Shown here in pieces: positions 13,457 through 17,702 of a stretch of DNA of 64,000 nucleotides. Position 1 is the stretch's first letter. Every line of letters begins with the position of its first letter. Below the pieces are notes generated by a model. The model had not been told where the DNA came from. It made no database searches and saw only the letters and a list, made by a program, of their open reading frames with translations. A program made the position numbers and the translations under genes. The DNA is from Poseidonibacter antarcticus (lineage in GTDB: Bacteria; Campylobacterota; Campylobacteria; Campylobacterales; Arcobacteraceae), in the NCBI RefSeq assembly GCF_003667345.1, contig NZ_RCWF01000001.1, positions 248,001-312,000 on the forward strand. Direction: 5' to 3'.

Positions 13457-13717
13457 TTACTTTGAAAGTTCTTCTAAAGCTTCAATTGCTGAGTAAGCTT
13501 TTTCTTTTTGTACAAAAATATGATCATGGTAATAACCAGCAACAACATCTGCAGATATTCCATATGAAGTCAATTTATTTGAAAAAGCAGCAGTAAGTCC
13601 AACTACATCTAAACTTGAATGAATTTCAAGTGTAATTTTGCTAAATATTGATTCATAAGAAAGCCCACTTTCATCAACTCTATTTTTCGATATGAAATGT
13701 ATTGTATATTTTTTTGC
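13457..13717 (-). pseudogene. N-terminally truncated ACT-domain protein remnant
   Basis: The 86-codon frame ends in a normal stop and encodes the conserved C-terminal part of a small ACT-domain protein. It includes the segments FISKNRVDESGLSYESIFSKI, ITLEIHSSLDVVGLTAAFSN and VVAGYYHDHIFV, with the last two matching the ligand-domain pattern of that family. A stop codon (13718-13720) lies upstream and there is no usable start codon, so the first half is missing or shifted out of frame near a run of seven A. Intact relatives are about 130 residues long. It is probably a decayed amino-acid-sensing protein. Confidence 0.6.
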
Positions 13718-13818
13718 TTAAACTGTAGGTTTTGGAACTTTCACTAAATTATTAAACTATAATATCTATTAATGCTTATCATAGTTACTGAAACAAAACT
13801 CTAACCGGTCTCAAAAAA

Positions 13819-13837
13819 CTAGAGATTAAATCTCTAG
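13819..13837 (-). terminator. Rho-independent terminator of the SQR/DUF1641 operon
   Basis: CTAGAGATTAAATCTCTAG forms an 8-base perfect stem with a 3-base loop. Read on the minus strand it is followed by TTTTTT. It lies seven bases after the DUF1641 stop codon. Confidence 0.8.
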
Positions 13838-13843
13838 TTTAAT

Positions 13844-14197
13844 TTATAATTGTTTTCCAATACCCTTAGTAAGATTTAACATAAATGCTAAACCTTTTCT
13901 TGTATCTTCATCTTTCATTAATTTTAATAATGTAAATACTGATGGTATTTCATTTTTTTCTGTTTCTCTTTTGGCATATCTAACTGCATTTTCTGTTACA
14001 AAACCTGCTGTTGTCATATTATCAATTGAATTTACCATTTTTTCAACCATTGGAGTTGTTGTCATTTCTATTTGGTCAGATAAAACAGCTAATAAATCTA
14101 TTAGATTATCTATTCTTCCCGTTTGAACTAACATAGTCATTTTATCTTCTATTTTTTGCATTTCTGCTGATTTTTTTATTTTAATTTCTTCACTCAT
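13844..14197 (-). CDS. DUF1641 family protein
   Basis: The 117-residue, helical, soluble protein has the pattern of DUF1641: a central NLIDLLAVLSDQIEMTTTPMVEKM segment and a C-terminal KLMKDEDTRKGLAFMLNLTKGIG. Genes of this family commonly stand next to sulfide:quinone oxidoreductase-like flavoproteins, as here, where it starts nine bases after the end of the flavoprotein gene in a two-gene operon. No catalytic residues are evident. A role as partner or assembly factor of the flavoprotein is inferred from context only. Confidence 0.8.
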   Translation of the reverse strand: MSEEIKIKKSAEMQKIEDKMTMLVQTGRIDNLIDLLAVLSDQIEMTTTPMVEKMVNSIDNMTTAGFVTENAVRYAKRETEKNEIPSVFTLLKLMKDEDTRKGLAFMLNLTKGIGKQL

Positions 14198-14206
14198 AAA
14201 TTACTC

Positions 14207-15397
14207 CTATAACATTCCTCGAGCTGCTGCCCAATATAAACCTTTATTAAAACCTAATCTAACAAAACTACCTAACTTACTACAAGGTGTTGGTTTAACA
14301 TCTTCTTCATAGTCATACCATAAAGGCATACCACAACTAAGCCCCATTTGTGCAACTGCTATTACTTTTCCATCATAAGATTCTGTTGGATACCCATATC
14401 TTAATTCTGCAGCAATATTATCAACAACTACATCAGTTTGATTATGAATAGTCCCTCCAGCTTTTGATACAGATAAATCTACTGCATCACCTAAAGTATA
14501 TACATTATCTAAACCTTCAACTTTTAATGTTTTTTTATCTGTAGGTAACCAACCCTCTCCATCTAATGCTTTAGTAGCTAATTTTGAATCTCTTACTACT
14601 TTTGCAGCTATAAAAGGAGGTGTTGACATTAAAATATCAAAAGGTATTTCTTCACCTTCTTCTGAATATGCTATTTTCTTTTCTGCATCTACTTTATTTA
14701 ATGTAAAACTTGATTTATGTTTTATATTCATTTCATCAAACATTGAAGGTAAAACTTTTGAAGTTGTTTCTTGTAAAAATAGACCATCAATTATTGTTTG
14801 TGCAACTTTTGGATAAGTATAAACAATTTCAACATCATCTCTAACGCCTTTTTCTATTAAATAATCATTTAGCATTATTGTTGTTTCAAGTGGAGCAATA
14901 CCACATTGGTGTGGAATATCTGGAGTTTTAGGGAAACTAACAGTAATTAGTACTCTACCTTTTTTTATTTTTTCAAATTTTTCGGCTAATTTTTTAGCAC
15001 CTTCATAAGAATAAAACCAATCTCCACCCTCTTCTAAACCAGGGATTCTATTGGCTGCTATTTCACATCCTGTAGCAATTACAAGATAATCATAATTATA
15101 TTTTTTACCACTTTGTGCTTTTACATAGTTTTCTTTTGTATTAAATTCAATAGCTTCATCAATAAAAAAATCTATTTCAGGCATTAAAAGTGATTTTTGT
15201 TCTCTTACAAATTCATCTCCAGCTGATTTATGAAAAGCTACATACATAGCCCCTGGTTTATATACATGTTTTGAAGAATTTGAAATCAATGTGATTTGTA
15301 ATTCATCTCTATCAATTTCAGGCATAAGTTTTTTCGCTAAGTTATTAGCTGTCATAGTACCAGCAGTTCCACCACCGACAATAAGAATTTTCTTCAT
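14207..15397 (-). CDS. Sulfide:quinone oxidoreductase-like flavoprotein
   Basis: The 396-residue FAD enzyme of the pyridine-nucleotide-disulfide fold has the dinucleotide motif GGGTAGT at residues 8-14, VIATG near 106 and a second FAD motif TLGDAVD. Cys111, Cys165 (in PHQCGIAP) and Cys355 (in GLSCGMP) are candidates for the redox cysteines that SQR enzymes use to pass sulfide electrons to quinone. The start is the ATG at 15395-15397, with AAGGAG seven bases upstream; the frame extends 15 codons further without a ribosome site. SQRs attach to the inner membrane. A triple direct repeat lies upstream and a two-component pair is encoded next door. Flavocytochrome c-like or polysulfide roles remain possible. 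Confidence 0.8.
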   Translation of the reverse strand: MKKILIVGGGTAGTMTANNLAKKLMPEIDRDELQITLISNSSKHVYKPGAMYVAFHKSAGDEFVREQKSLLMPEIDFFIDEAIEFNTKENYVKAQSGKKYNYDYLVIATGCEIAANRIPGLEEGGDWFYSYEGAKKLAEKFEKIKKGRVLITVSFPKTPDIPHQCGIAPLETTIMLNDYLIEKGVRDDVEIVYTYPKVAQTIIDGLFLQETTSKVLPSMFDEMNIKHKSSFTLNKVDAEKKIAYSEEGEEIPFDILMSTPPFIAAKVVRDSKLATKALDGEGWLPTDKKTLKVEGLDNVYTLGDAVDLSVSKAGGTIHNQTDVVVDNIAAELRYGYPTESYDGKVIAVAQMGLSCGMPLWYDYEEDVKPTPCSKLGSFVRLGFNKGLYWAAARGML

Positions 15398-15427
15398 ATA
15401 TATCTCCTTGTAAAATTTTATACAAAT

Positions 15428-15433
15428 ATTGTA
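15428..15433 (-). promoter_or_regulatory. Predicted -10 box of the SQR gene
   Basis: On the minus strand the hexamer is TACAAT, 31 bases before the SQR start codon. A 17-base spacer would put the -35 box inside the TATAAG repeat array, as in promoters where an OmpR/PhoB-type activator replaces the -35 contact. Confidence 0.45.
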
Positions 15434-15453
15434 ACAAAGCAAGACAAGAAAAG

Positions 15454-15481
15454 TATAAGAGAACTATAAGGTTTTTATAAG
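15454..15481. promoter_or_regulatory. Triple TATAAG repeat, candidate response-regulator site
   Basis: TATAAG occurs at 15454, 15465 and 15476, exactly 11 bases apart, in the 87-base gap between the response-regulator stop and the SQR start. Direct repeats with an 11-base period are the hallmark of OmpR/PhoB-type binding sites, and the neighbouring response regulator has that type of output domain. Confidence 0.65.
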
Positions 15482-15484
15482 ATT

Positions 15485-16168
15485 TTAAGGAAGAATTATC
15501 ATATAACCTAGACCTTTTAGGTTTTCAAGAAATTTACTATAAAGTTTTTTACGCAAGCCAACTATTACCATACGAATAGCATCGGGAGTTGTATTTTCTT
15601 CCCAAATATTTTGCTCAATAAATTCTAAAGAAATATATGTATTTTTATTTTTTAAAAATAATTCTAATAATAATAACTCTTTTTTAGTAAGCTTTATAAG
15701 TTTATCTTGTTTATACAACATTTTATTAGAACTATCAAAGAAAAATCCTTCCCCTAAATCAACTCTTTCTAAATTCTTTTGAGAGATTTTAAGGTGAGAA
15801 GATATACCAACAAGCAATTCATCAATATCTATTGGTTTCTTTAAATAAAAATCTACCCCGCTTTGAACTGCACGATTTATATAAATAGTGTTATTGAAAG
15901 CTGTCATTACTATTCTTATAGTTTTATCATTTATTTTAGTGATTTTATCTAAAAATGCTAAACCATCCATATCAGGCATTTGAATATCTGCTAAAACGAC
16001 ATCTGTGTTATTATTTTTAAATAATTCTATAGCTTTTATAGCATTTGGAGCTGTGTAAACTTCTTTAAAATAAATTTGCAATACTCTTGATAACCATTTT
16101 AAGGTACTTGAATCATCTTCTACTATTAAAATACTACTATTTTGTAAACGCTTATGGATAATACTCAC
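15485..16168 (-). CDS. OmpR-type response regulator
   Basis: The 227-residue product has an N-terminal receiver (about 10-125; acidic pocket VEDD at 16-19, phospho-acceptor Asp61 in LADIQMPDMDG, Lys near 109 in LKKP). A C-terminal winged-helix DNA-binding domain (about 135-227) contains LTKKELLLLELFLKNK and a recognition-helix region DAIRMVIVGLRKKL. It lies ten bases after the sensor kinase gene. Its likely targets include the SQR/DUF1641 operon directly downstream, where a matching 11-base-period repeat is found. Confidence 0.93.
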   Translation of the reverse strand: MSIIHKRLQNSSILIVEDDSSTLKWLSRVLQIYFKEVYTAPNAIKAIELFKNNNTDVVLADIQMPDMDGLAFLDKITKINDKTIRIVMTAFNNTIYINRAVQSGVDFYLKKPIDIDELLVGISSHLKISQKNLERVDLGEGFFFDSSNKMLYKQDKLIKLTKKELLLLELFLKNKNTYISLEFIEQNIWEENTTPDAIRMVIVGLRKKLYSKFLENLKGLGYMIILP

Positions 16169-16178
16169 TTCAAACTTC

Positions 16179-17615
16179 CTACTTTTTTAAATAGATACAA
16201 AACATTGTCCCTTCTTTATAATTTTTGACAGCTAAAGAACCTTTCATATGATGTTCAATTATCATTTTGGACATATAAAGTCCAATTCCACTACCTTTTT
16301 CTTTTGTTGTGAAGTATGGATCGAATATTTTAGGAAGATTTTTTTCTTCTATTCCTCCGCCATTATCAAAGATTTCTATTTTAAGTTTATTATCTAAAGA
16401 TTCTATATTAATTTTTACAAAACCATTTTTGATTTTATTATCTACTATTGCCATCATTGAATTTGATAACATATTCATAATAACTTGTCTAAATTCATTT
16501 GAGAAACCTAATATATTTAAGTCTTCATTTTCTTTTACATTTATAGAAACAGTTATTTTATTTATATTTAATTGAGCATCAATTAATCTTATAGCATCTT
16601 TAATATTACTTAAAACATCAAATATCTCTTTTTTCTTAGTAATACGGAAAAAATCACTAAAATCATCAATTGTGTGAGTCATATATGATACTTTTTCCAT
16701 CATTTCTTCTTCAAATTCAAGTAAAAATTCTTTTTGTATCTTTTGTTCATTTGATATATGTCTTAAACCTTGAATCATCAGACCTAAACCATTTAAAGGT
16801 TGTCTCCATTGATGGGCAATTGAATCAATCATTTCTCCCATAGCAGCAAGTCTTGATTGATGACACATAATTTCATATTGTTGAGTTCTTTTTGATACTT
16901 CTAACTCAACTTGCTTTTTTAATTCTTCTTGATATTTTATATCATCTGTAATATCTGAAGTAATCATTACTATTGTATCTGTCATTTCTAAATAACTTAA
17001 AGACATACTAGCGTTCATATATTCACCAGATTTTGAGATACAAATCTTACGAAAATTTACAACACTACCTTCTTTTATAGCTTTTTTTATTGCCCTTTTA
17101 GAAGATGTTTTATATTCATTGGAAGATAAAGAGATACAAGATTCTTTATATAATTCTTCCATTGTATATCCCATCATTTTTTGAAAGAAATTATTTGCAT
17201 ATAAAAACATTCCTCTCTTATCTAAAATAGAAATTCCATTAGCAGCTAAGTCAAATACAGCTTGTAATTCTTGTTCTTTTGAATATTTTATATTAAAATA
17301 TTTTGTTATATCAAAAAAAAATAAAGCTTTTAGATTGTCTTTTTCAAGTTTACTAATAGATATTTCAAATTTATATTCTTTCCAATCAATTATAATCTCT
17401 TTTTTTTTATTTTCTAATAACTTTTTTATTTCTAAATAAGAAGTTTTTGGAAATATATCTTTTAATTGTTTATTATTTACAGAAGGAAATTTCTTAGAGT
17501 ACTTACCTAAAGTTTCTACAACTTTTTCTTCTGAATTAAAAATTAAGACTATTGTTTTTGGAATTGATTTTAGATAGGCTAAATTAGAATTTTTTAATAA
17601 CAAATAAGACTCCAT
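16179..17615 (-). CDS. PAS-domain sensor histidine kinase
   Basis: The 478-residue kinase has no membrane segments, so it senses something inside the cell or is membrane-associated through partners. It has an N-terminal unassigned region (1-110) and a PAS domain (about 115-225; ANGISILDKRG and ANNFFQKMMGYTMEEL). The dimerisation and phosphoacceptor helix has His268 in SIAHQWRQPLN, an H-box type common in Campylobacterota and Deltaproteobacteria. The ATPase domain (about 350-478) has DNGGGI and GSGIGLYMSK. It forms a two-gene operon with the response regulator. The PAS ligand is unknown; sulfide, redox state or oxygen would fit the context. Confidence 0.93.
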   Translation of the reverse strand: MESYLLLKNSNLAYLKSIPKTIVLIFNSEEKVVETLGKYSKKFPSVNNKQLKDIFPKTSYLEIKKLLENKKKEIIIDWKEYKFEISISKLEKDNLKALFFFDITKYFNIKYSKEQELQAVFDLAANGISILDKRGMFLYANNFFQKMMGYTMEELYKESCISLSSNEYKTSSKRAIKKAIKEGSVVNFRKICISKSGEYMNASMSLSYLEMTDTIVMITSDITDDIKYQEELKKQVELEVSKRTQQYEIMCHQSRLAAMGEMIDSIAHQWRQPLNGLGLMIQGLRHISNEQKIQKEFLLEFEEEMMEKVSYMTHTIDDFSDFFRITKKKEIFDVLSNIKDAIRLIDAQLNINKITVSINVKENEDLNILGFSNEFRQVIMNMLSNSMMAIVDNKIKNGFVKINIESLDNKLKIEIFDNGGGIEEKNLPKIFDPYFTTKEKGSGIGLYMSKMIIEHHMKGSLAVKNYKEGTMFCIYLKK

Positions 17616-17702
17616 TTTAAGAAAATTTAAAAAACTATATCATAATTTACTTTTTTCTCTAAGATAATTAAAAATATTTATTCATTTAGATACAATTCCT
17701 AA

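Follow-up and report, generated by a model that had tools for sequence, protein, structure and literature searches.

The window analyzed here, a stretch of 64,000 nucleotides of the Poseidonibacter antarcticus genome, carries on its minus strand consecutive genes for a PAS-type sensor histidine kinase, an OmpR/PhoB-type response regulator, a protein of the sulfide:quinone oxidoreductase (SQR) family and a DUF1641 protein. An 87-bp gap separates the stop codon of the response regulator gene (15485) from the ATG of the SQR-family gene (15397), both genes lying on the minus strand, and this gap holds a set of short direct repeats and a predicted promoter. On the minus strand it reads CTTATAAAAAC CTTATAGTTCT CTTATACTTTT CTTGTCTTGCT TTGTTACAAT. 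The features of the locus, in the direction of transcription, are:

16179..17615, minus strand: PAS-type sensor histidine kinase (PAS and HATPase_c domains)
15485..16168, minus strand: OmpR/PhoB-type response regulator (Response_reg and Trans_reg_C domains), predicted binder of the repeats
15477..15481, minus strand: repeat copy 1, CTTAT (hexamer CTTATA at 15476-15481), exact CTTAT in 23 of 24 orthologous loci
15466..15470, minus strand: repeat copy 2, CTTAT (hexamer at 15465-15470), exact CTTAT in all 24 loci
15455..15459, minus strand: repeat copy 3, CTTAT (hexamer at 15454-15459), exact in 18 of 24 loci and otherwise mostly TTTAT
15444..15448, minus strand: repeat copy 4, CTTGT here and CTTnT in most relatives, with the C kept in 23 of 24 loci and exact CTTAT in 3
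15428..15435, minus strand: extended −10 element G-T-TACAAT (G at 15435, hexamer at 15433-15428), its G, TA and T being kept in all 24 loci
15404..15409, minus strand: ribosome-binding site AAGGAG of the SQR gene, read directly from the sequence
14207..15397, minus strand: SQR-family flavoprotein of 396 aa (Pyr_redox_2), the predicted target, its start taken as the ATG at 15397
13844..14197, minus strand: DUF1641 protein (PF07849), second gene of the predicted target operon
13813..13840, minus strand: hairpin and T run after DUF1641, a possible terminator (perfect inverted repeat, T residues following on the minus strand)

The best PDB matches of the SQR-family protein were sulfide:quinone oxidoreductases (E = 1e-23), and its cysteines C111, C165, C355 and C372 are invariant in 23 SQR orthologs. 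C165 aligns with a cysteine of human SQR, and the second cysteine aligns inexactly. Assignment to the SQR type III selenoprotein subtype (NF049943) is not supported, as the score of 281 bits falls well below the curated score of 525. The DUF1641 gene is found directly 3' of the SQR gene in all loci long enough to show it. Further downstream, positions 13457-13720 of the window encode an ACT_7 domain on the minus strand (PF13840, E = 4.6e-11), outside the list of open reading frames of at least 80 aa; this region is possibly a remnant, a truncated gene or an undetected small gene.

The response regulator matches the receiver domain PF00072 (3.4e-24) and the output domain PF00486 (5e-11). This Trans_reg_C match bears out the OmpR-type output domain that an earlier note on this DNA had attributed to the adjacent two-component system. 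Receiver residues D61, T89 and K111 and the recognition helix DAIRM...LRKK are conserved among regulator orthologs. A PAS kinase and an SQR-like target had also been named as parts of a predicted circuit; both are borne out, with a PAS domain identified in the kinase and an SQR-family gene, DUF1641 behind it, as the predicted target.

On the plus strand, TATAAG occurs at 15454-15459, 15465-15470 and 15476-15481, the triple hexamer with an exact 11-bp period that the earlier note had described. Read in the SQR sense, on the minus strand, the element is CTTAT-N6-CTTAT-N6-CTTAT, followed in the same register by a degenerate fourth copy (CTTGT) and then by the extended −10. The count of three hexamers is thus right for the exact copies, and the element has four in all, the degenerate one having been missed. 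TACAAT lies 20 bases beyond the third hexamer, as previously read, on the minus strand at 15433-15428. With the −10 hexamer assumed at −12, the copies fall at about −60, −49, −38 and −27 from the predicted start. The earlier placement of the hexamers at the −35 box holds for copy 3, the only one to overlap the predicted promoter's −35 position; copies 1 and 2 are farther upstream, and copy 4 falls in the interval from −35 to −10.

The repeat is far above chance expectation. Counting non-low-complexity hexamers with three evenly spaced occurrences (period 8-16 bp) retrieved two such triples in the 64-kb window, with the TATAAG triple being the sole one at period 11. First-order Markov simulations of 64 kb averaged 0.01 triples of period 11, or 0.18 when periods of 8-16 were pooled, and when the intergenic region was shuffled, any such triple at period 11 appeared in 25 of 200,000 shuffles. 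The exact pattern CTTATN6CTTATN6CTTAT has one match in the 2.9-Mb genome of the organism. Across 398 genomes of the order the exact triple was found in 12, and in 8 of these it is the SQR site; three further matches (G351, G278 and G164) look like local tandem arrays, and the remaining one (G373, L067), close to the gene of an iron-sulfur protein, is AT-rich sequence with no relation to the SQR site.

SQR orthologs (71-82% identity) collected from whole genomes and GTDB contigs yielded 24 distinct loci, the labelled ones belonging to Arcobacter, Malaciobacter, Sulfuricurvum, Sulfurovum, Sulfurimonas and other Campylobacterota. According to the earlier note, its idea would be refuted if the repeats were not conserved in relatives that keep the gene order. 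The idea passed this test, since all 24 loci have the element in the gap that separates the regulator stop codon from the SQR start codon, and the conservation lends good support to the predicted circuit. Pairwise identity reaches 96% in copies 1-3 and 74% in copy 4, as compared to 48% in the spacers and 35% in the DNA just downstream of the −10. The G-n-TAnnnT of the extended −10 is present in all 24 loci at a constant distance from the repeats, and the distance from the −10 to the ATG ranges from 26 to 42. Since the spacing is fixed to the −10 and not to the ATG, the element appears to be a promoter element acting at the DNA level rather than an RNA or coding feature. It is also retained across local GC contents of 26-53%, which excludes a by-product of AT richness.

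The genes around the element are equally tightly associated. The order kinase, regulator, repeats, SQR, DUF1641 is constant in all sufficiently long contigs, and in the loci compared the regulator was never found apart from the repeat element. Regulator orthologs (51-62% identity) are well set apart from the next proteins, which reach 39% at most, and the genomes that have them are exactly those with SQR orthologs (10 of 298). The distribution of the cassette across families is patchy, which suggests that it may have been transferred or lost as one unit.

Response regulators of the OmpR/PhoB class bind head-to-tail direct repeats with 11-bp spacing. Every one of the 24 loci has four direct repeats of this kind near the promoter, in phase and 11 bp from centre to centre, the last of them degenerate. 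We consider it likely that a two-component circuit dedicated to a single target uses the element as its operator and activates the adjacent sqr gene through it. In such a circuit, a probably soluble PAS histidine kinase would phosphorylate the adjacent OmpR/PhoB-type regulator, and the phosphorylated regulator would bind the four CTTAT half-sites, head to tail and one helical turn apart, as one or two dimers. The bound protein would then substitute for the missing −35 box and recruit sigma-70 polymerase to the conserved extended −10, turning on the sqr-DUF1641 operon. Binding by this regulator, activation as opposed to repression, and use of the TACAAT −10 are all steps that we infer.

The repeats might instead be a general feature of sigma-70 promoters in the Campylobacterota, a periodic A/T-rich upstream element read by the polymerase with no specific regulator. 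Sigma-70 promoters of C. jejuni do show a periodic A/T-rich upstream pattern and have an extended −10 in place of a −35 box (PMC3656092). The SQR promoter has a C. jejuni-like extended −10, and a general epsilonproteobacterial A/T periodicity could account for part of the periodicity of the repeats (PMC3656092). However, the columns that hold the C of the copies rank with the most informative of the alignment (up to 2.4 bits; one row, L007, is out of register), and this C is retained in loci at 40-53% GC. We also scored 95 upstream regions, taken from the window and from the long loci, for three CTTAT copies at period 11 (maximum score 15). All 13 SQR promoters scored 14-15, whereas the highest non-SQR scores were 14 (one region), 13 (one region, ahead of the L036 kinase gene) and 12 (two regions), with all others at 11 or less; periods of 8-10 and 12-14 gave nothing comparable in the 95 regions. 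The promoter scores and the informative C are therefore better explained by a sequence-specific protein than by the sigma-70 pattern, and we regard the general promoter feature as very unlikely.

If a specific protein reads the repeats, it could in principle be another, global transcription factor, with the adjacent two-component system controlling something else; gene neighborhood, after all, does not prove control. The non-SQR region scoring 14 of 15 (L041, positions 1163-1262, Malaciobacter halophilus) lies between the gene of a different OmpR-type regulator and a yceI-like gene, and may reflect chance or a related motif. A global regulator nevertheless fits poorly with the single exact instance and the lack of genome-wide excess over the reversed control. 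In the organism's own genome, allowing two mismatches gave 44 matches versus 54 for the reversed control, and a composite pattern of two copies plus a spaced −10 gave 13 versus 26, so that no excess was seen with either. The first of these comparisons argues that there is no genome-wide family of sites and that the element is specific to the SQR promoter. Indeed, the search of this genome for a regulon with the exact triple and the composite pattern did not find a second credible target. In addition, copy 1 is close to the regulator gene itself, lying 2-25 bp past its stop codon in the loci where this was measurable. Control by a global factor thus seems to us very unlikely.

The proposed operator resembles the binding sites of PceP, an OmpR-type regulator of Sulfurospirillum. 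PceP binds CTATW-N17-CTATW within CTATA repeats that are separated by gaps of six, the middle one lying in the −35; binding needs repeats both upstream and downstream of the −35, and the protein is described as an activator (PMC7755780). The two systems share the phylum, a regulator of the OmpR type, direct repeats of 5 bp separated by six (an 11-bp period), a middle copy at −35 with the outer copies 22 bp apart (17 bp between them), and a respiratory enzyme operon as the target, activated by PceP and presumably activated here. Indeed, copies 2, 3 and 4, at columns 11, 22 and 33 with the −10 hexamer at column 48, reproduce the PceP geometry. The element is not a PceP site proper, as CTATW is absent and CTTAT is found in the 24 loci. 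Unlike the PceSP system, it has four copies, and one target was found for it, where the PceSP regulon comprises some eight transcripts. The kinase in the window is apparently soluble, in contrast to the membrane-associated PceS, and the targets differ (SQR versus a dehalogenase).

This geometry also bears on the direction of control. The same regulator could bind its site as a repressor that is released by the signal, and since copy 4 lies between −35 and −10, a protein bound there could block the polymerase. The fixed place of the element over the −35, together with the extended −10, instead matches activator sites of the PceP type (PMC7755780). Repression is accordingly rather unlikely in our assessment.

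Other known systems share parts of the arrangement. NreBC of Bacillus licheniformis activates sqr-pdo in response to sulfide (PMC9918477). As proposed for our locus, a PAS-type kinase and a response regulator activate a nearby sqr; in contrast, NreBC belongs to another phylum, resides in a gram-positive cluster with a YrkD repressor, and uses another binding site. NreC is of the NarL type, not the OmpR type. ArcA sites contain 2-5 direct repeats at 11 bp, with three to five being common (PMC3798270). ArcA and PhoB sites are similar to the element in being tandem direct repeats, 11 bp from centre to centre, often in more than two copies, and differ from it in sequence; the position of ArcA sites in the promoter is variable, whereas that of the SQR element is fixed.

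If the regulator controls its own operon as well, similar repeats might be found before the kinase gene. Consistent copies were not found in the upstream regions of the kinase genes, and autoregulation of the kinase-regulator operon is therefore not supported. In the window, the kinase gene shares an 87-bp intergenic region (17616-17702) with a divergent MFS transporter gene, and this region has no CTTAT element. Two close relatives (L031 and L036) have two CTTAT-like copies, 11 bp apart, upstream of the kinase gene, followed by a −10-like TATGATATAG, which suggests that the kinase and regulator genes may be autoregulated in these two only.

The signal perceived by the kinase, for which the earlier note had suggested sulfide or polysulfide, is the least certain part of the circuit. 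The kinase does not reach the curated cut-off of any specific sensor family, and a fold search returned general PAS-histidine kinase matches only. In its structural model, of moderate confidence (pLDDT 76, pTM 0.41), an N-terminal PAS-like domain that is poorly conserved precedes a second, highly conserved PAS domain and a kinase core; judging from this model and from the domains detected, the protein is probably soluble. All 19 kinase orthologs share two cysteines of this second domain, C160 and C192, which most paralogs lack. Among about twenty more distant kinases that were compared, only L115, a large kinase in another family, has both. There (G113), a minus-strand kinase region, 38% identical to the kinase in the window, lies within an open frame of 1361 residues that adjoins a receiver-GGDEF gene, and its PAS cysteines are found in TSCIELS...KSCFAKDG; the two-cysteine PAS sensor may thus recur here in a different context.

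In a sequence comparison with the PDB, the second PAS domain matched LOV-type proteins best, with C160 aligned to the flavin-adduct cysteine of LOV photoreceptors. A LOV photosensor was rejected, since the NCRFLQ signature is absent; the kinase has ESCISL at this place, and SCISLS is invariant or nearly so in its orthologs. A second precedent is offered by ArcB, in which two conserved cysteines in the cytoplasmic PAS region can form quinone-controlled disulfides (reviewed in PMC8534201). The kinase in the window likewise has two conserved PAS cysteines, although their positions and the kinase architecture differ from those of ArcB, which is a membrane-bound hybrid kinase.

The invariant PAS cysteines, the LOV-adduct position and the SQR target together make it plausible that the kinase senses a thiol, sulfane sulfur or redox state. 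More speculatively, it would sense cytoplasmic sulfide, sulfane sulfur or the quinone/thiol redox state through C160 and C192. We raise only tentatively the possibility that it is a new cytoplasmic sulfur sensor, in which C160 and C192 (the latter on a core strand) would react either with sulfide or with the SQR product (sulfane sulfur or polysulfide) and thereby set the phosphorylation of the regulator.

Campylobacterota are major sulfide oxidizers in vents, sediments and oxygen-poor water. Our search of the literature for an SQR regulator in this phylum found none, and sections of a 2019 review of respiratory regulation in the phylum mention SQR and name no regulator (PMC6682613). The locus described here offers a conserved and testable candidate circuit, with its sensor, regulator, operator, promoter and one target, and it is present, among others, in the named strain Malaciobacter halophilus DSM 18005. 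The two cysteines of the PAS domain point to a specific chemistry of sensing; if the kinase does respond to the product or substrate of SQR, the cassette would form a closed loop that senses this compound and is carried through the Campylobacterota as a single block.
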